Positions 2,748 to 10,680 of a stretch of 13,779 nucleotides of DNA are shown in pieces. Source of the stretch: Bacteroidales bacterium. GTDB lineage: Bacteria; Bacteroidota; Bacteroidia; Bacteroidales; VadinHA17. The notes under the pieces were generated by a model that ran no database searches, was not told where the DNA came from, and worked only from the letters and a program-made list of their open reading frames with translations. The first letter of the stretch is position 1; each line of letters begins with the position of its first letter. The position numbers were made by a program, and so were the translations under genes. The DNA is taken from positions 1 through 13,779 of the forward strand of contig JABUEV010000013.1 of the NCBI GenBank assembly GCA_013314865.1. The letters run 5' to 3'.

Positions 2748-2821
2748 CGGGGTGTAGCGCAGTTGGTTAGCGTACCTGCTTTGGGAGCAGGTGGTCGTCA
2801 GTTCGAGTCTGACCACCCCGA
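2748..2821 (+). tRNA. tRNA-Pro (anticodon TGG)
   Basis: The full cloverleaf can be drawn by hand. The acceptor stem CGGGGTG (2748-2754) pairs with CACCCCG (2814-2820), and the discriminator is A2821. The anticodon stem CCTGC/GCAGG encloses the loop TTTGGGA with anticodon TGG (2782-2784), which reads proline codons. The T arm is GTCAG-TTCGAGT-CTGAC. CCA is not encoded. It points toward the 3' end of the trp operon and is not part of it. Confidence 0.96.
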
Positions 2822-2883
2822 CTTAGTTTCGGCAGGAATAAATTTCAGACCGCAATATGGAACGAGCTGTATTAGCGGCGATT

Positions 2884-3669
2884 TCACGTAATTGATGAAT
2901 TTCTGATTCTGTCTATAAAACCTTCTATTAATACTTTGTCCGGCTTTTTATCGCTCAGGAACTTAATGAACGCACTTCCGACAATTGCCCCGTTTGCCAT
3001 TTGACACGCTTCTTTAAATGTGCTGTTATCGGAAATGCCAAAACCAATCATTAGTGGATTTAGAAGATTCATCTCCTTTATTCTTCTGAAATACTCTATT
3101 TGCCTTTCTGTGAACTGACCCTTTACACCTGTCGTTGATGAAGAGGATACCATGTATACAAATCCCCTGCTGATACTGTCTATTATTCTGACTCGCTCAT
3201 TATCAGTACGGGGTGAAATCAGCAATATGTTGTACAGACCATTTCTACTGAACAGACCTGAATATTCTTTTTTATAAATCTCAGGAGGCAGATCTGGCAA
3301 AATGACTCCATCGATTCCTGTTTCAGAGCATTTCTTACAAAAATTCTCAATTCCAAAACGCAGGACCGGATTCAGATAGCCCATTAATAAAAGCGGAATA
3401 TTGATAGTTTTACGAATGCCGGATAACTGGTTAAACAGGATTTTCAGGCTTATACCGTTTCTTAGTGCAGTTTCATTGCTTCTCTGAATGACCGGTCCGT
3501 CTGCCAGGGGATCTGAAAATGGCATTCCTATTTCTATCATATCTGCCCCTCCTTCAGCGAGCAACTTTATTAATGTTGCAGTTGAGTTCAACTCGGGGTA
3601 ACCCGCAGTAAAATAAATGGATAGAATATTATTTCTTTTGCAAAGGAAAAGTTCATCAATCCTGTTCAT
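2884..3669 (-). CDS. trpA: Tryptophan synthase alpha chain
   Basis: TrpA splits indole-3-glycerol phosphate into glyceraldehyde-3-phosphate and indole, which is channelled to TrpB. The 261-residue protein is a complete TIM barrel of near-normal family length. The catalytic pair is visible: Glu46 in MIEIGMPFSDP (E. coli Glu49) and Asp57 in PLADGPVIQ (E. coli Asp60). The phosphate-binding region is represented by VSSSSTTGVKG and by GFGISD and GAIVGSAF near the C-terminus. The ATG start opens MNRIDELF, a typical short N-terminus. It is the last gene of the operon, 29 bases after trpB. I found no convincing terminator between its stop and the convergent tRNA-Pro. Confidence 0.97.
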   Translation of the reverse strand: MNRIDELFLCKRNNILSIYFTAGYPELNSTATLIKLLAEGGADMIEIGMPFSDPLADGPVIQRSNETALRNGISLKILFNQLSGIRKTINIPLLLMGYLNPVLRFGIENFCKKCSETGIDGVILPDLPPEIYKKEYSGLFSRNGLYNILLISPRTDNERVRIIDSISRGFVYMVSSSSTTGVKGQFTERQIEYFRRIKEMNLLNPLMIGFGISDNSTFKEACQMANGAIVGSAFIKFLSDKKPDKVLIEGFIDRIRNSSIT

Positions 3670-3698
3670 TGTTTATAAAAAAGGTTAACAAAAGGTTA

Positions 3699-4895
3699 TT
3701 ATGATATATTATTCATTCTGTTCATATAACTCATATATGCCGCCATATCCTTGTCTCCCCGGCCCGACAATGTAATTACCACCACATCTTTCAGTCCGAA
3801 CCTGATTTTATCCAGCACAGCAAGGGCATGTGCGGGTTCAAGAGCCGGGATTATTCCCTCAAGGCGGGTCAGTCGGAATGCGGCTTCCATCGCTTCTTCA
3901 TCAGTCGCTGATTCAAACGTTACTCTTCCTGACTGGTTTAATGCGGCAAAGAGGGGCCCTATTCCCGGGTAGTCGAGTCCGGCAGATATTGAATATGGTT
4001 CTTTTACCTGGCCGTCTTCATCCTGTATCAGCATGGTCCGGCTGCCGTGAATTATTCCGGGAGAGCCTGTTGCTATTGTTGCTGCAGTTTCAGCGGTTTT
4101 TACACCTTTTCCTGCGGCTTCAACAGCAATCAGATTTACTTTTTCATTGTCAAGGTAATTGTAGAATGAACCTGCTGCATTACTGCCGCCTCCAACGCAT
4201 GCAATAATATAATCCGGATCGGATTTTCCGGTATGCTCCTTCAACTGCCATTTCAATTCCCGGCTGATGACCGACTGGAGCCGGGCGACCAGATCGGGAT
4301 AAGGATGAGGACCGACTACTGAACCAATAATATAATATGTGTCATTAGGATTATTTATCCAATCCCTGATAGCTTCATTGGTTGCATCCTTAAGCGTCAT
4401 ATTTCCGCTAACTACAGGCACTACTTCGGCACCCAGCATTTTCATTCTCAGGACATTCGGCATCTGTCGTTCAACATCGAGTTTTCCCATATAAACCACA
4501 CATTCGAGTCCCATAAGGGCACAGACAGTGGCTGTTGCTACGCCGTGCTGACCGGCACCTGTCTCTGCAATTATCCTGGTTTTCCCGAGCCTTCTGGCTA
4601 TCAGTATTTGCCCGATAGTGTTGTTTATCTTATGAGCTCCCGTATGGTTAAGGTCTTCACGCTTCAAATAGATATTGGTATTATAATGTTTTGAAAGCCT
4701 TTTTGCGTGAAAGAGGGGAGAAGGTCTTCCTGCATAATCCCTGAGCAGACTATTAATTTCTTTATTAAAGTCCTCACTGTTAATGATATTCAAATAATTA
4801 TCCCGGAGCAACTTAATATTTGAATGCATCATTTCAGGTATGTAAGCCCCGCCGAATTCTCCGTAATAACCCCATTCATCAACATTATATTTCAT
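3699..4895 (-). CDS. trpB: Tryptophan synthase beta chain
   Basis: TrpB is the pyridoxal-phosphate enzyme that condenses indole with serine to give tryptophan. I take the ATG at 4895 (398 residues, MKYNVDEWGYYGEFGGAYIPEMM at the N-terminus, family-typical). The frame can be extended by three codons to a TTG at 4904, but this adds nothing conserved. PLP-binding Lys89 lies in HTGAHKINN, the catalytic Glu in AETGAGQHG, and the PLP phosphate loop is GGGSNAAG. The YPGIGP and LEPAHA motifs are also present. Its ATG lies inside the end of trpF (11-base overlap), which suggests translational coupling. It precedes trpA, its partner in the alpha2-beta2 complex. Confidence 0.97.
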   Translation of the reverse strand: MKYNVDEWGYYGEFGGAYIPEMMHSNIKLLRDNYLNIINSEDFNKEINSLLRDYAGRPSPLFHAKRLSKHYNTNIYLKREDLNHTGAHKINNTIGQILIARRLGKTRIIAETGAGQHGVATATVCALMGLECVVYMGKLDVERQMPNVLRMKMLGAEVVPVVSGNMTLKDATNEAIRDWINNPNDTYYIIGSVVGPHPYPDLVARLQSVISRELKWQLKEHTGKSDPDYIIACVGGGSNAAGSFYNYLDNEKVNLIAVEAAGKGVKTAETAATIATGSPGIIHGSRTMLIQDEDGQVKEPYSISAGLDYPGIGPLFAALNQSGRVTFESATDEEAMEAAFRLTRLEGIIPALEPAHALAVLDKIRFGLKDVVVITLSGRGDKDMAAYMSYMNRMNNIS

Positions 4896-5526
4896 TACCT
4901 GCAAATTTTAAGTCATTAATAAATCTTTTTACTTTTTCAGGATCTTTAATGCCCGGACTAACTTCAAAGCGGCTGTTGATATCGACCGCAAACAGGGAAG
5001 TATGAGACAGGGATTTTATTAATCCGCAGTCTTCCGGACCGATTCCACCTCCGAGAATAAATGGTTTGGTGAGATCATACTCATCCAGCTTTCCCCAGTC
5101 AAATTTATTGCCACTGCCGCCTTTATTAGCGTTGTTGGTGTCAAATAAAAAATAGTCACACACATCGATATATTCAGCAAGAGGCTCAAAGCGGAATAGT
5201 TGGTCAACTCCAAATGCCTTTATGATACTTATGTCAGAATTTTTCAATGATTTACAATATTCCGGAGACTCGTTGCCATGAAGTTGGACCATGTCAAGAC
5301 CATAGCAACGGACCATTTCAATGATTTTTGGTAAATCTTCATTGACAAATACACCCGCTTTGAGTATATAGGCTGGAATAACCTCGAATAATGATATATC
5401 CGGCTTATGGCCCACGTATCGGACTGATTCAGGGTAAAAAATGAATCCGATCAGATCAGGTCCTGTGTCAGCTATTTGGCTTATGTTATACTTTTCTGTC
5501 AAGCCGCAGACTTTTACTTTTATCAT
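4885..5526 (-). CDS. trpF: Phosphoribosylanthranilate isomerase
   Basis: TrpF performs the Amadori rearrangement of phosphoribosylanthranilate to CdRP. The 213-residue protein opens MIKVKVCGLT, with catalytic general base Cys7. The catalytic acid is Asp129 in YFLFDT. Further family marks are the QLHGNE motif (residues 81-86), the phosphate-binding GGSGNKFDW and LGGGIGPED, and AVDINSRFE near the C-terminus. It starts 41 bases inside the end of trpC and ends 11 bases after the trpB start. The gene is separate here, unlike the trpCF fusion of enterics. Confidence 0.96.
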   Translation of the reverse strand: MIKVKVCGLTEKYNISQIADTGPDLIGFIFYPESVRYVGHKPDISLFEVIPAYILKAGVFVNEDLPKIIEMVRCYGLDMVQLHGNESPEYCKSLKNSDISIIKAFGVDQLFRFEPLAEYIDVCDYFLFDTNNANKGGSGNKFDWGKLDEYDLTKPFILGGGIGPEDCGLIKSLSHTSLFAVDINSRFEVSPGIKDPEKVKRFINDLKFAGNEI

Positions 5527-6313
5527 GATGAACTCTAATTTTATTTGTAAATTCCATAAACGCCATAACCGGATCAGGTGATTTCATAAAGAGTTCTCCT
5601 ATCAGAAAACCATTATAACCTGCCTGTCTGAGTCTGATAACAGATTCGGATGATGAAATGCCGCTTTCAGAGATCTTAATGAACTTTTCAGGGATTCTGT
5701 CTGCCAGTCCCAAAGAAACATTTATATCAATATCGAAACTCTTCAGATCCCGGTTATTAACTCCTATAATATCAATATCCTCATTGACCATTTCAATCTC
5801 AGACAATGAATGTATCTCGCATATCACTTCCATTCCAAGAGAATGTGACATTTTTGTGAACTTGCGAATACGTTTTCCTGTCAGTACGGATGCCAGGAGT
5901 AATATCGCATCAGCACCAATAGCTTTTGATTCCGGTATCTGAAATTCGTCTATTATAAAATCTTTTCTTAATACAGGAATGGAGTTGTACTCTCTGGCAG
6001 TAACCAGATCATCGGAACTGCCTCCAAAAAACAACCGGTCGGTAAGGATTGAGAGACCTGATGCACCTCCCCTTGAATATCCCTGTGTCACATCCATTAC
6101 GGACGCATCGGGATTGATTGTGCCTTTTGATGGCGAAGCTCTTTTAAATTCAGCAATAATTCCTGTTTTTGAAGGATCAGAAATAAATTCCTTTAAAGAC
6201 TTCGTTTCTTTAAAAAAGAACCTGCTCCGTTCAAGGTCAGTTATTGTTATCTGGTTTTTAAGAAGTAGCAGTTCTTTCTTTTTATTAATTAAGATTTTCT
6301 CAAGAATTGTCAT
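5486..6313 (-). CDS. trpC: Indole-3-glycerol phosphate synthase
   Basis: TrpC decarboxylates and cyclises CdRP to indole-3-glycerol phosphate. The 275-residue barrel shows AEFKRASPSKG (residues 54-64, with the conserved E, K57 and K63), SILTD, PVLRKDFI with the catalytic Lys117, EVICEIHS, IIGVNNRDL and SESGIS. The ATG start overlaps the trpD stop in an ATGA arrangement. The last part, after NKIRVHH, is a short basic tail. It extends past the conserved barrel and creates an unusually long 41-base overlap with trpF, so the tail codons also encode the N-terminus of TrpF. Confidence 0.96.
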   Translation of the reverse strand: MTILEKILINKKKELLLLKNQITITDLERSRFFFKETKSLKEFISDPSKTGIIAEFKRASPSKGTINPDASVMDVTQGYSRGGASGLSILTDRLFFGGSSDDLVTAREYNSIPVLRKDFIIDEFQIPESKAIGADAILLLASVLTGKRIRKFTKMSHSLGMEVICEIHSLSEIEMVNEDIDIIGVNNRDLKSFDIDINVSLGLADRIPEKFIKISESGISSSESVIRLRQAGYNGFLIGELFMKSPDPVMAFMEFTNKIRVHHDKSKSLRLDRKV

Positions 6314-7305
6314 GTCTGCATTTCAATGAGTGATTTTAAAGAATTAAGAGCTTTTCCGCCGAACAATGAATCTTCAGCAATTGCTCTGCACTCATCGAGT
6401 GGTTTTGACGGGCGGCAACATTTAATTGCAAGCTGTGAGTTAACAATAACCACGTCGTTCTGTGCCCTGGTTCCTTTACCCTCAAGTACTGAGATGAAAA
6501 TCTGAGCTGATTCATTGACACTTTTACCTCCATGCAAATCAGCAGGATTGCACCTGCAGAAATGAAGTGATTCAGGTGAAAGAATTTCTTCCGCGCCATC
6601 TACAATATATCTGAAACTGTCGGTAAGGGAGACTTCATCGTAACCGTCAAGACTATGGACAATTGTAAACCGGATATCTGTCGACTGGTAAAGGTAGTTG
6701 TATAACCGGGCAAGCTCCGAACTGTAAACGCCAATCATTTGTTTACGAGGAGAAGACGGATTAACAGTTGGGCCGAGCATATTAAAGAAGGTCTTCACTT
6801 TAAGAGCTTTCCGTATTGGTGCAACACTTTTCATAGCTGGGTTAAAGAGAGGAGCATGGAGGAAACAGACTCCGGCTTTGTCGATTTCTCTTTTAAGTTT
6901 ATCTTCTTCAGAAGAGAATTTATAACCGAAGTATTCAAGAATATTGGATGAGCCGCAAGCGGATGTGACAGCGTAGTTCCCATGTTTGGCAACCTTTATG
7001 CCTGCACCTCCAAGCACAAAGGTTACCAGTGTTGATATATTGAAGGTGTCCTTTCCGTCCCCCCCTGTACCGCATACATCCATAGTGTCAAAATCAGAAA
7101 GATCTACCTTGATACACAGATTCTTAAGTGCATCCCTGAAGCCCGACAGTTCCTCAACTGTTATGCTTCTCATCAGATATACTGTAATAAATGCAGCCAC
7201 CTCTGATTCAGAGTAATTATTCAGCGCAATGTTTGTCAGAACCTCCTCAGCCTCTTCCCGGTTGAGTGTTCTGTGTTCGAACAGATAGTTAAGTATTTTT
7301 CGCAT
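6310..7305 (-). CDS. trpD: Anthranilate phosphoribosyltransferase
   Basis: TrpD transfers the phosphoribosyl group of PRPP to anthranilate. The 331-residue protein has family-typical length and carries the PRPP-binding CGTGGDGKDTFNIST, the anthranilate-site motif KHGNYAVTSACGSSNILEYFG, and FFNMLGPTVNPS (usually LGPL.NP). The C-terminal region has VHSLDGYDEVSLT (HG.dG.DE type). No TrpG fusion is present, unlike E. coli TrpGD. It starts 15 bases after the trpG stop and ends in an ATGA overlap with trpC. Confidence 0.96.
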   Translation of the reverse strand: MRKILNYLFEHRTLNREEAEEVLTNIALNNYSESEVAAFITVYLMRSITVEELSGFRDALKNLCIKVDLSDFDTMDVCGTGGDGKDTFNISTLVTFVLGGAGIKVAKHGNYAVTSACGSSNILEYFGYKFSSEEDKLKREIDKAGVCFLHAPLFNPAMKSVAPIRKALKVKTFFNMLGPTVNPSSPRKQMIGVYSSELARLYNYLYQSTDIRFTIVHSLDGYDEVSLTDSFRYIVDGAEEILSPESLHFCRCNPADLHGGKSVNESAQIFISVLEGKGTRAQNDVVIVNSQLAIKCCRPSKPLDECRAIAEDSLFGGKALNSLKSLIEMQT

Positions 7306-7320
7306 TTCGGAAGATTTTTG

Positions 7321-7926
7321 TCATTTAACGGTTATCAGGGGAATGTATTCAGTCTGCATTTCAATCCAGTTCTTAATAATTTCAAATCCATGGTCAGTTA
7401 AAATGGATTCCGGGTGGAACTGAAGTCCTCTCACATCATAATTTCTGTGAGTGATACCCATTATTATTCCGTTCTCATCATCACATGTGATTTTGAAACA
7501 ATCCGGAAGGTGTTTCCTCGACACCACCCATGAATGATAACGGCCTGCCATAATTATTGGAGGAATATTTTTAAAAAGTGGTTCATCAGGTTCCTTAATT
7601 CTAACAGGGGATGCAACACCATGATATACAGTACTAAGATTAAGTATCTTTCCGCCAAACGCCTCACAGATAGCCTGATGGCCAAGGCAGATCCCCAGGA
7701 TGCTTTTGACTGGAGCAAATTGTTTAATCAGTTCAAGGCAGATACCTGATTCGGATGGTATTCCTGGTCCTGGTGAGATAACAATCTTATCATATTCTCC
7801 AATTGTTTCAATATCAACTTCATCATTTCGGAAAACTGCAGGAAGGTCACCTGTAAGTTTTTCTATATAATGTACGATGTTATAAGTGAAAGAATCATAG
7901 TTGTCGATAACTGCAATATTTTTCAT
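7321..7926 (-). CDS. trpG: Anthranilate synthase component II (glutamine amidotransferase)
   Basis: TrpG is a class I glutamine amidotransferase that supplies ammonia to TrpE. The 201-residue protein shows IDNYDSFTYN at the N-terminus, the SPGPG oxyanion motif and the nucleophile elbow ILGICLGHQ with Cys80. The catalytic His171 and Glu173 lie in LQFHPESILT. These proteins can also serve as PabA in folate synthesis. I saw no separate pabA in the window, so dual use is possible but unproven. The start overlaps the trpE stop by four bases (ATGA). Confidence 0.96.
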   Translation of the reverse strand: MKNIAVIDNYDSFTYNIVHYIEKLTGDLPAVFRNDEVDIETIGEYDKIVISPGPGIPSESGICLELIKQFAPVKSILGICLGHQAICEAFGGKILNLSTVYHGVASPVRIKEPDEPLFKNIPPIIMAGRYHSWVVSRKHLPDCFKITCDDENGIIMGITHRNYDVRGLQFHPESILTDHGFEIIKNWIEMQTEYIPLITVK

Positions 7927-9332
7927 TTTATACCTCCTGCTGTTTCAATTGCTTTTTTAAGTGCACCGAGTTTATTTTTTACTTCCTGCAATTCGTTTTC
8001 TTCATTTGAACCGGCAACAATACCTGCACCGGCCTGATAGTAAAGTATGTTGCCTTTGCTGAGGAATGTACGGATCATGATGGCAAGGTTCACAGTTCCT
8101 CTGAGATCTATTATACCTATGGCACCACCATAGTAGCCTCTTCTGTTCTGTTCATACCTGTCGATCAGTTCCATAGCTTTGTGTTTCGGAGCTCCTGTAA
8201 GTGTTCCGGCCGGGAAAGTTGCTGTAAGCATATCGCCGGTTGTCGATCCTTCACGAAGTTCACCGGAAACATTTGAAACAAGATGTATCACATGTGAATA
8301 GAATTGTACCTCGCGAAGGTTCTCAACCTTTACATTTTTTGCGTACCTGCTGAGGTCGTTGCGGGCCAGATCGACAAGCATTATGTGTTCGGCATTTTCC
8401 TTGGTATCGTAAGATAAACGCTCGGCGGCCAGTTTATCATTTTCGTCATCACCCGTGCGTTTGAAGGTGCCTGCAATGGGATTAATCCAGGCTTTCTGTC
8501 TTTGTATTTTCAGGTGTGCCTCAGGAGATGATCCGAAGATTTTATAACTGCCATAGTCGAAGTAAAACAGATACGGAGATGGATTTATAGAACGCAGTGC
8601 GCGGTAAACATTAAATTCATCACCGGAAAATGTCCTTGAGAATTGTCTTGAGAGCACGATTTGGAAAACATCGCCTCTGAAGCAGTGTTCCCGGCCTCTC
8701 CTGACCATCTCCCTGTACTGATCGTCAGAAATATCCATTGTTTCTTCCCCTTTGGCACTGAACGGGTATACGGCGAAATTCCGGCTGTTCAACAAAGTTA
8801 TTAACCTGTCAGCTTCGCTAAGATCGTCGTTTGTCAGATTCTCAATAATATATAAGACATTCTGATAATGATTGACAGCAATTATGCATTTGTAGAAGTC
8901 ATATCTGATATCAGGAATTTTATGGTCATATCTTTTACGGGATTGTAATTTTATTTTTTCAAAGAATTCGACAGCATCATATGATATATAGCCGAAAAGA
9001 CCATTTACCGGGATATCAGGGTCTATATCCCCGGCTATGAAAGATTCAATAAAAGAATTGAATCTGTGCTTGAGGGTGCATCTGTCTGTTATCTTAGTTA
9101 CTATTCTGGAACCATCGGGGTATTCTTCAGTAATTGCTCCACAATCGGCAATAAAAGAGGCCATCGATTTCAGGCAAATAAATGAATAGCTGTTCTCGCT
9201 GCCATGATAGTCAGAACTTTCAAGCAGATGGGAGTTTGGGTATATATCTCTTATTTTAAGGTAAATGTTTACAGGTGTTATAGTGTCGGCAAGTAATCTG
9301 ACTGACTTTGTTTTCACTTTAAATTTGCTCAT
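7923..9332 (-). CDS. trpE: Anthranilate synthase component I
   Basis: TrpE converts chorismate and ammonia to anthranilate, the committed step of the pathway. The 469-residue protein carries the Trp-binding LLESS motif at residues 36-40, so feedback inhibition by tryptophan is expected. The chorismate-binding half shows GSSPEAHL, NPIAGTFKRTG, YDTKENAEHIMLVDLARND, FPAGTLTGAPK, RRGYYGGAIG and YYQAGAGIVAGS. The LLESS motif and the position at the head of the operon favour TrpE over the related PabB. The ATG at 9332 lies 99 bases after the leader-peptide stop and follows the attenuator hairpin, so its transcription should be set by that attenuator. Confidence 0.97.
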   Translation of the reverse strand: MSKFKVKTKSVRLLADTITPVNIYLKIRDIYPNSHLLESSDYHGSENSYSFICLKSMASFIADCGAITEEYPDGSRIVTKITDRCTLKHRFNSFIESFIAGDIDPDIPVNGLFGYISYDAVEFFEKIKLQSRKRYDHKIPDIRYDFYKCIIAVNHYQNVLYIIENLTNDDLSEADRLITLLNSRNFAVYPFSAKGEETMDISDDQYREMVRRGREHCFRGDVFQIVLSRQFSRTFSGDEFNVYRALRSINPSPYLFYFDYGSYKIFGSSPEAHLKIQRQKAWINPIAGTFKRTGDDENDKLAAERLSYDTKENAEHIMLVDLARNDLSRYAKNVKVENLREVQFYSHVIHLVSNVSGELREGSTTGDMLTATFPAGTLTGAPKHKAMELIDRYEQNRRGYYGGAIGIIDLRGTVNLAIMIRTFLSKGNILYYQAGAGIVAGSNEENELQEVKNKLGALKKAIETAGGIK

Positions 9333-9358
9333 CTCATTTCTTTTTAGCGATTATTTTC

Positions 9359-9394
9359 AAACAAAACGGCCTGTCGTGAGTCCGACAGGCCGTT
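9359..9394 (-). terminator. trp attenuator terminator hairpin
   Basis: Reading the - strand, AACGGCCTGTCG (9394-9383) is followed by a six-base loop and the exact complement CGACAGGCCGTT (9376-9365). This is a perfect 12-bp, GC-rich stem. The next bases are TTGTTT (9364-9359), so stem plus tail reads ...GTTTTGTTT, a usable intrinsic terminator. It lies between the trpL leader peptide and trpE, in the direction of the operon. It is therefore placed to stop transcription before the structural genes. Confidence 0.92.
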
Positions 9395-9431
9395 AAATAT
9401 TATAAGTAATTTATACAAATTGCTTGAAGTC

Positions 9432-9491
9432 TCACAACAAAAGTCTAAGTCTGCTTAACCACCAACACCAATTTGTACGGAATGCTTTCAT
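9432..9491 (-). CDS. trpL: trp operon leader peptide
   Basis: This is a 20-codon frame too short for normal gene finding: ATG at 9491-9489, TGA at 9434-9432, encoding MKAFRTNWCWWLSRLRLLL. Trp is at residues 8, 10 and 11, so three of four consecutive codons are TGG or lie next to one (W-C-W-W). Trp is the rarest amino acid, and such a cluster between a promoter and a terminator in front of trpE is the hallmark of ribosome-mediated attenuation. The start codon sits about 15 bases after the expected transcription start in an AT-rich context usual for this phylum. The peptide itself should have no other role. The ribosome senses charged tRNA-Trp by stalling here. Confidence 0.9.
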   Translation of the reverse strand: MKAFRTNWCWWLSRLRLLL

Positions 9492-9506
9492 ATTTTTATC
9501 TGCTTG

Positions 9507-9543
9507 TAGATGCAAAGCTACATCTATTTTCTAAAAAAACAAA
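9507..9543 (-). promoter_or_regulatory. trp operon promoter (TTTG-N19-TAGCTTTG)
   Basis: On the - strand TTTG (9543-9540), exactly 19 bases of spacer and TAGCTTTGC (9520-9512) match the Bacteroidota housekeeping promoter TTTG-N19-21-TAnnTTTG at every fixed position. Transcription should start near 9507, about 15 bases before the trpL ATG. The -7 octamer TAGCTTTG is flanked by the inverted arms TAGATG (9526-9521) and CATCTA (9512-9507). This could be an operator or chance. Confidence 0.85.
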
Positions 9544-9551
9544 TTTTTTAT

Positions 9552-9609
9552 AGTAATTACCCAGGAGCTAAATTACTGAGCAGTTCAGAAAAATTACCGG
9601 ATGAACTGC
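9552..9609. repeat. Two inverted repeats between the propeller gene and the trp promoter
   Basis: GCAGTTCA (9580-9587) pairs perfectly with TGAACTGC (9602-9609) across 14 bases, just past the stop of the propeller gene. AGTAATT (9552-9558) pairs perfectly with AATTACT (9571-9577) across 12 bases, ending 9 bases upstream of the trp -33 element. The first could be a weak terminator for the upstream gene, although no T-run follows. The second could be either an AT-rich upstream promoter feature or a protein site. Confidence 0.4.
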
Positions 9610-9621
9610 CGTAGCGTCTGG

Positions 9622-10680
9622 TTATTGTTTTAGAGTAAAAACCCCATTGTTAGCCGTTCCTATCCAGATATTATTGTCAAAATCGGTTTCAATAACTGTA
9701 ATTTTATCGCCGTTAAACAGATTTTCCGGGGCCTTTATCCAGTTTTTACCGTCATAAACACGAAGGACATAGGTATTGCCATCAATACTGACTGCCCAGC
9801 AATAACTTCTTCTGTCGGCTTTAAGTATTGTAAAAATATAAGTCCGTGATGTCATGAAATCAGGTTTGAGCCTTGTCCATTCACTGTTTTTATATATGTA
9901 GAGCTTGTTTGTATCGGCCAAACATGAAGAAAGTCCAAAATCTTCAAGCAGGTAAATAGTGCCTGTCGGACTTACTGTGAATGCCCAAATCCAATAGAAT
10001 GTTCCACTGTAATTGCCGAGACAATTCCAGGAATTTCCTGAGATTCGGTAGATATTTGATCTTGTTACTTTGCTGAGAGTCATGACATATATGGAGCCGT
10101 AATGATCTATCGCCATATCACCGATCACATGCTGGTTGAGAATTGAGTTGTCAGGAGTGAACAGATCAAACTTTTTCCCGTTGTATACGACCAATCCCCC
10201 GTAGTCATGGGCGCCGCTGGAAAACCATACCCTTCCGTCAAGTCCAACCTCAACGTTGGTGATATAGTCTCTTGGTAATCCTGAATTATCCTTTGTATAC
10301 CAGGTGATGCCGTCTTTTGTCACATGCCCCAATCCGCCTCCGCTTGTGCCGACCCATAATGATTCATCGCCGGCAATGGAAATATCCCTTATTTCAAAAT
10401 CCAGATTAAAGATTTGCGCCGGTTGTCCATTTTTAAAGTGAAAAAGCTCCTTCCCGCTGGCTAACCAGGTATTACCTTTGTAATCAGGTTCAATGCAATC
10501 AATCCTTTTATCCTCCAGCAAGCGACCTGTGACCTCAAACCGGATCTCAGGCGAGTAATCCTTAAGTGTATCTTCTTTTCTTGTCAGTACTATATCATTA
10601 TCAACGGTACCATGAGTATCAGGCTTCCGGCAGGCAAATGAGCAGGTTACCAGGATAATTAAAAGGACCGTGATCCTTAT
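9622..10680 (-). CDS. Beta-propeller lipoprotein with no canonical start codon
   Basis: The protein is a propeller of the two-component-regulator (Reg_prop) kind, without a kinase domain. Blade-like motifs recur: GNTWLASGKELFHFKNG, SLWVGTSGGGLGHV, RVWFSSGAHDYGGLVVYNG and NIWIGTANNGVFTL. The first TTG start (10521) would give 299 residues but cuts off a clear lipoprotein signal. Upstream in the same frame the DNA encodes KKIRITVLLIILVTCSFAC, a basic then hydrophobic stretch ending in a lipobox whose Cys codon is at 10632-10630. No ATG, GTG or TTG occurs in frame between the stop at 10734-10732 and this signal. The codon expected to be ATG, before KKIRI, is TAT (10689-10687). I report from the possible ATA start at 10680 (352 residues). 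Either a rare start is used, or the gene has lost its start and may be decaying. The ligand is unknown. Confidence 0.72.
   Translation of the reverse strand: MRITVLLIILVTCSFACRKPDTHGTVDNDIVLTRKEDTLKDYSPEIRFEVTGRLLEDKRIDCIEPDYKGNTWLASGKELFHFKNGQPAQIFNLDFEIRDISIAGDESLWVGTSGGGLGHVTKDGITWYTKDNSGLPRDYITNVEVGLDGRVWFSSGAHDYGGLVVYNGKKFDLFTPDNSILNQHVIGDMAIDHYGSIYVMTLSKVTRSNIYRISGNSWNCLGNYSGTFYWIWAFTVSPTGTIYLLEDFGLSSCLADTNKLYIYKNSEWTRLKPDFMTSRTYIFTILKADRRSYCWAVSIDGNTYVLRVYDGKNWIKAPENLFNGDKITVIETDFDNNIWIGTANNGVFTLKQ

Follow-up and report, generated by a model that had tools for sequence, protein, structure and literature searches.

A predicted tryptophan attenuator before a Bacteroidota trp operon, with an antiterminator that appears to pair with the terminator apex

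Described tryptophan leaders and the window's element

The logic of E. coli trpL joins Trp codons, a stalled ribosome, alternative hairpins and a terminator; in the T-box and TRAP systems that control trp genes in Firmicutes, sensing is by direct tRNA binding or by a protein. For other phyla, a 2010 survey by Lopatovskaya and others reportedly includes the Bacteroidetes. This survey of attenuation in bacteria is among the works cited by PMC4833913. The closest described element is Bacteroid-trp (RF01692), listed for Bacteroidetes in Table 1 of PMC2864571 (Weinberg et al. 2010), and this entry answers the question, raised in an earlier sequence-only reading of the DNA studied here, of whether such an attenuator had been described. 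A passage of PMC6414381 places Bacteroid-trp upstream of trp in Flavobacterium psychrophilum and likens it to the E. coli mechanism, and one in PMC7366714 speaks in general terms of leader-like short frames in Bacteroides thetaiotaomicron. Within the literature consulted (supplements, including that of PMC2864571, and most subscription papers lay outside its scope), no account was found of antiterminators directed at the apex, or of leaders on trpB2 or pheA, in Bacteroidota. The element treated here has an ordinary function of a kind described in 2010, missed in this case by the standard cut-off; the apex-directed antiterminator and the reach of such leaders to trpB2 and pheA may be new.

The window, a stretch of 13,779 nt from a Bacteroidales bacterium (contig JABUEV010000013.1 of assembly GCA_013314865.1), holds a complete trpEGDCFBA operon on the minus strand, ending at 2884. 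Its first structural gene is trpE (7923..9332, start at 9332), for which the best family is NCBIfam TIGR00564 at 423.3 bits, under the curated cut-off of 517.7; trpG, trpD, trpC, trpF, trpB and trpA follow in that order on the same strand (2884..7926), each with an NCBIfam match. Five of the seven genes (trpG, D, C, B and A) exceed their curated cut-offs, and trpE and trpF match below theirs. Among named contigs, the closest belong to MAGs with the label Bacteroidales or Bacteroidota, whose TrpE is 75-77% identical. A tRNA-Pro gene (anticodon TGG; 2748-2822, plus strand) faces the operon's end, and a frame upstream of the leader (9622-10521, minus strand) weakly resembles the type IX secretion protein PorZ (43 bits against a cut-off of 260).

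Over the leader region, RF01692 is the first-listed Rfam match and lies in register with the start codon (9511-9384, minus strand), at 26.4 bits (E 0.75) against a gathering score of 49. At gathering, Rfam returns only tRNA over the window, with neither T-box nor RF00513; other sub-threshold matches (MicC, RsaE, HPnc0260 and others) fall far under their cut-offs and were set aside. Four of 20 tested loci pass RF01692 at gathering, including the same-genus trpE leader L013 (64.9 bits), through which the window's element is homologous to sequences that pass. Among 58 genomes of the genus, 30 have a match at E <= 1 and one exceeds the cut-off, so that standard annotation of Trp control is incomplete in this genus. 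Searches of the window's own genome returned no RF01692 match at E <= 0.001, nor at E <= 1 with stricter filters, because the window's hit is too weak.

With Bacteroid-trp, the window's element shares the phylum, a position upstream of tryptophan genes, a short frame with Trp codons, a leader hairpin (predicted in the window) and the GGC(C/U)UGUC arm of the terminator. The two differ in that the Rfam model stops at the terminator 5' arm, which places the apex and its pairing outside the model. The window's copy is thus a diverged relative of the described element, not a formal RF01692 member by score. The logic of E. coli trpL (RF00513) is likewise that of the window, but the E. coli antiterminator pairs with the 5' arm of the terminator and the window's appears to pair with the apex; RF00513 is unlisted for 9250-9650 up to E 10. 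Trp-dependent termination, predicted in the window, is also common to the T-box and TRAP systems, which differ in their tRNA-binding or protein sensor.

Leader and terminator upstream of trpE

On the minus strand, TTTG (9543-9540), 19 nt and TAGCTTTG (9520-9513) make up a motif (9513..9543) that we take to be a Bacteroidota-type promoter and whose TAnnTTTG part is conserved; it departs from the sigma-70 consensus, and a sigma-70 scan of the window did not list it. The putative leader peptide gene MKAFRTNWCWWLSRLRLLL (9432..9491) runs for 19 codons from ATG at 9491 to the stop TGA at 9434-9432, with the sensing codons (9459..9470) being TGG at codons 8, 10 and 11 (9470-9468 and 9464-9459). Between this leader and the first gene lies an intrinsic terminator (9358..9394), AACGGCCTGTCG GACTCA CGACAGGCCGTT, in which all 12 pairs of the stem (9394-9365) form, eight of them G-C, followed by the T-rich tail TTGTTTG. 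Promoter, 19-residue frame with Trp at 8, 10 and 11, 12-bp terminator and trpE thus stand where the sequence-only reading had put them. The stretch 9505-9358 folds at -44.4 kcal/mol (z -4.78 against 200 shuffles), and the terminator core is unique in the window's own genome, allowing up to 2 mismatches.

The check proposed in that reading, comparison of the regions upstream of trpE in relatives, was carried out on a sample of 98 genomes, the window's own included, together with named contigs. In the sample, trpE was found at E <= 1e-60 in 50 genomes and 51 places, of which 50 places were obtained (30 + 20); 80 named contigs brought the total to 130 loci, and removal of two cut inside trpE and of five duplicates left 123 distinct regions, the window's among them. 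The named contigs were picked up as top matches to the window's trpE, so the survey does not sample the phylum at random. A script searched for a short frame in which a run of four codons includes two Trp or more, followed by a terminator. It found the pair in 113 of the 123 regions; of 615 dinucleotide shuffles 2 qualified (none when three Trp were required), and of the 123 reverse complements none did. Relatives that retain the hairpin and have lost the Trp frame, named beforehand as a case that would count against attenuation, were sought; the relatives keep both, with at least three Trp in four codons in 101 of the 123 regions.

Two of the script's misses, L002 and L031 (which L111 duplicates), show both parts by eye, and L084 has 47 nt of upstream sequence only; in seven adequately long regions (L030, L102, L118, L124, L125, L127 and L128) the script found no leader. 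One call, L119, is doubtful and was excluded from the alignment and from the folding of 112 loci described below. A tandem pair of Trp leaders precedes trpE in L025, L036 and L037, the upstream one with its own terminator-like hairpin. Genome G056 carries trpE twice (L002 and L111), with a Trp leader of its own before each copy; identity to the window's trpE is 76% and 75%.

Alignment A1, of 45 leader sequences, adds finer resolution. Little or no variation is seen in its columns for codons 10 and 11, unlike those for codon 8; at the terminator, 95.7% of cells pair, and 11 of the 12 pairs have changed on both sides. At 93 of 113 loci a TAnnTTTG motif precedes the leader start by no more than 60 nt (57 of 1130 letter shuffles), although only 54 of these 93 add TTG or TTTG at about -33. 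The leader, its Trp codons and the terminator are in this way shown by comparison among relatives.

A different reading is that the terminator merely separates transcripts, the short frame being untranslated and trp standing under a repressor or other control. The window's leader has, by eye, no Shine-Dalgarno sequence, a point in favour of such a reading; Bacteroidota mostly start translation without Shine-Dalgarno sequences. TGG has no synonyms, and its clustering before the terminator in 113 of 123 regions, with the recurrence of the same type of leader on trpB2 (34 of 49 regions, and none of 490 shuffles), makes a simple transcript separator very unlikely. We give equally little credence to an additional role in trans for the RNA or peptide of the leader once termination has released it: the support for this idea is the precedent of the Sinorhizobium trp leader, reported in PMC7298713, whereas the peptide outside the Trp cluster varies between genera, is more alike within a genus and indicates no target.

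Antiterminator pairing and the proposed switch

The antiterminator, unnamed in the sequence-only reading, was identified here as the segment GUUGUGAG (9431..9438), which overlaps the leader stop codon. Read from 9438 to 9431, it can form 8 pairs with CUCACGAC (9380-9373; 9373..9380), made up of the last four loop bases and the first four bases of the 3' arm, and the pairing covaries among relatives. The bases 9376-9373 are shared with the terminator stem, so that by computation the antiterminator competes with it. The "classical mechanism" of the earlier reading therefore holds in outline, as an attenuator, but the antiterminator appears, from the sequence comparisons that follow, to capture the terminator apex (loop and upper 3' arm) and not the 5' arm as in E. 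coli.

In a duplex test on 113 loci, the leader segment was set against three parts of the terminator: the 5' arm minus its last three bases, the apex (the loop flanked by those three bases and by six of the 3' arm) and the remaining 3' arm. Mean duplex energies were -4.65, -10.6 and -2.79 kcal/mol, respectively; the parts differ in length, and it is therefore the z-scores against shuffled leaders, not the raw energies, that matter. These averaged +0.16 for the 5' arm (113 loci), -2.56 for the apex (113) and +0.32 for the rest of the 3' arm (112). Taken singly, the apex duplex reached p <= 0.01 in 63 of 113 loci. At 81 of the 113 it overlaps the stop codon, and at 107 its position relative to that codon is between -12 and +8 nt.

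Swapping partners among loci points the same way. For 52 distinct apices, true pairings gave -11.1 against -8.18 (sd 0.31) for permuted ones (z -9.5), and 0 of 5000 permutations were as low; for 37 distinct cores, true partners gave -11.3 against -7.62 (sd 0.38). Single pairs are less specific, the own leader falling in the best tenth for only 17 of 52 apices, because relatives share apices. On A1, seven of the 8 antiterminator pairs have changed on both sides, and covariation is 0.192 against 0.143 (sd 0.013), a value reached by 0 of 500 shuffles; the share of paired cells is 72%, and still 57.5% after a slide by +3. Two of five measures are less clear, pair types being reached by 48 of 500 shuffles and both-side-changed pairs by 14 of 500. 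Comparison thus shows a covarying pairing between the putative antiterminator and the apex.

Should the attenuator instead have textbook geometry, the antiterminator would pair with the 5' arm, and complementarity to the apex would be secondary, or would reflect contact with the loop while the stem stays closed. E. coli K-12 trpL does score in this manner by the same method (one sequence; 5' arm -10.9 kcal/mol, z -1.8; apex z +0.57), the apex as defined here takes in the last three bases of the 5' arm, and a contact with the loop only is compatible with a closed terminator. Across the 113 loci, however, leader segments pair with the remaining 5' arm no better than shuffled ones do, and in loci such as L058, L092 and L129 the duplex includes stem bases adjoining the loop and hence competes with the terminator. 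Textbook geometry is in our judgement unlikely, and capture of the apex is the reading followed below.

A leader hairpin (9414..9477), with a long-range stem pairing 9477-9469 with 9422-9414, is predicted by the minimum-energy fold. Covariation on A1, which aligns poorly there, does not support this stem (0.109 against 0.106, with 211 of 500 shuffles as high); the stem is accordingly retained as a prediction and not as an established part.

Folding calculations indicate how these elements might act as a switch. The window's leader RNA was folded at successive lengths to mimic its emergence during transcription, and all bases up to the ribosome's front edge were held single-stranded; folding was nested, so that the antiterminator and terminator helices are mutually exclusive by construction. 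At RNA ends 9373-9371, the computed probability of the antiterminator is 0.95-1.00 with a ribosome at Trp codons 8, 10 or 11, and 0.00 without a ribosome or with one at the stop codon. The antiterminator is dominant only at RNA ends 9375-9371: at 9370 its probability in the stalled state falls to 0.36-0.44, and from 9369 on the terminator is favoured in every ribosome state. With dominance confined to so short a range of RNA ends, the switch must be kinetic.

Over 112 loci, mean antiterminator probability is 0.93 with the ribosome at the last Trp codon, 0.87 at the first, 0.33 with no ribosome and 0.02 at the stop codon, the last value following largely from the masking itself. At 78 of 112 loci the stalled value is higher than the empty one by over 0.3; a single locus shows the opposite, and in some relatives the ribosome-free probability is already high. 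The switch between RNA states accordingly comes from modelling by folding; we infer where transcription starts, that ribosome and polymerase are coupled, and that the leader responds to Trp.

In the proposed sequence of events, transcription would start about 15 nt before the leader ATG, with a ribosome trailing RNA polymerase. When charged tRNA-Trp is plentiful, the ribosome would reach the stop codon and cover the antiterminator segment at 9438-9431; with no translating ribosome, the leader hairpin would hide the same segment. In both cases the terminator would form and transcription end at about 9360. When tRNA-Trp is scarce, the ribosome would stall at codons 8-11 and open the leader hairpin, leaving GUUGUGAG free to pair with CUCACGAC at once as the terminator loop emerges. 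The terminator would then be too late to close, and trpEGDCFBA would be transcribed.

It is highly probable that the element before the trp operon is a ribosome-mediated transcription attenuator: the frame has three TGG in 19 codons, a Trp-rich leader being conserved among relatives, an intrinsic terminator separates it from the first gene, and a competing antiterminator is found by computation. Leader and terminator together very probably let the host turn its tryptophan genes on only at tryptophan shortage. We lean slightly towards a broader reading, in which Bacteroidota Trp attenuators would represent a distinct design: an antiterminator at the stop codon captures the loop and upper 3' arm before the terminator closes, a terminating ribosome covers the switch, the arrangement recurs on trpB2, and tight coupling of ribosome and polymerase is implied. 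An apex-directed antiterminator would depart from the textbook model in a concrete way that can be checked. Attenuation of this type needs the first ribosome on the leader to stay close to RNA polymerase; such leaders, found widely in Bacteroidota here, should allow transcription-translation coupling in the phylum to be checked with a simple reporter.

Leaders before trpB2 and pheA

Several sub-threshold RF01692 matches in the genus precede a stand-alone TrpB-like enzyme (NF009057, 705 bits), which we take to be trpB2. Among 14 further RF01692-like stretches in the genus, nine have another Trp leader, eight of these before a trpB2-like frame (L152, L154, L156-L159, L161 and L163); L153 and L155 are trpE-type leaders, and L160, L162 and L164 show no Trp leader. 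In the upstream regions of trpB2 (L166-L215), the script found a Trp leader with terminator in the 34 of 49 distinct regions already cited, and the pairing with the apex is again present (mean z -3.85). The script missed 15 regions, among them the truncated L172 and four (L197, L199, L201 and L209) in which a Trp-rich frame can be seen. One Bacteroidota trpB2 leader (L166, 1359-1463) exceeds the RF00513 cut-off (43.3 against 41 bits), perhaps through convergence.

The Trp leaders on trpB2 suggest a role for this TrpB-like enzyme in supplying tryptophan, including in some draft genomes in which trpE was not matched (G014, G027, G043 and G052). This apparent absence of trpE may be partly a matter of assembly, since G048, likewise without a trpE match, has the trpE-type leader L155 at a contig end. 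In the window's own genome trpB2 was not found (the best match is the window's trpB), nor was the trpB2 terminator pattern; pheA lies near a contig end (C558) in this genome, so an assembly gap is possible for trpB2.

The 45 leaders, the window's among them, were used to train a covariance model, R1. At E <= 0.01 it has matches in 55 of 56 genomes of the genus and in 101 of 198 from the phylum; many of the weak matches are probably bare terminators. Thirty-eight extra matches, hand-chosen from the lists and including one place twice (L286 and L307), were examined. The script found a Trp leader in 26, of which 22 stand before trpE, two before trpD, one before trpB2 and one at a contig end; 12 were without. 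In L280, a Trp leader MNPICTYWRWRLQLFNCE precedes an apparent trpB start (by eye) cut by the contig end, and trpB alone may be attenuated there.

A His attenuator was sought before hisG in the window's own genome, and no His-rich frame was found among listed ORFs of at least 20 aa. A Phe/Tyr-rich frame is present in 22 of 23 pheA regions (L318-L340) from 31 genomes, and the script found frame and terminator together in 20 of the 23, against 1 of 230 shuffles. The pheA of the window's own genome (L326; G000:C558:4429-5241) has the Phe/Tyr-rich leader MNIVYNIFAYFYFYFYFFKRR. A further case is L311, one of the 12 R1 matches without a Trp leader, where a Phe/Tyr-rich leader precedes a prephenate dehydratase-like gene (best family prephenate dehydratase, 196.7 bits, cut-off 219). 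Its antiterminator-like segment resembles the 3' arm by eye, which suggests the ordinary 5'-arm geometry at this locus.
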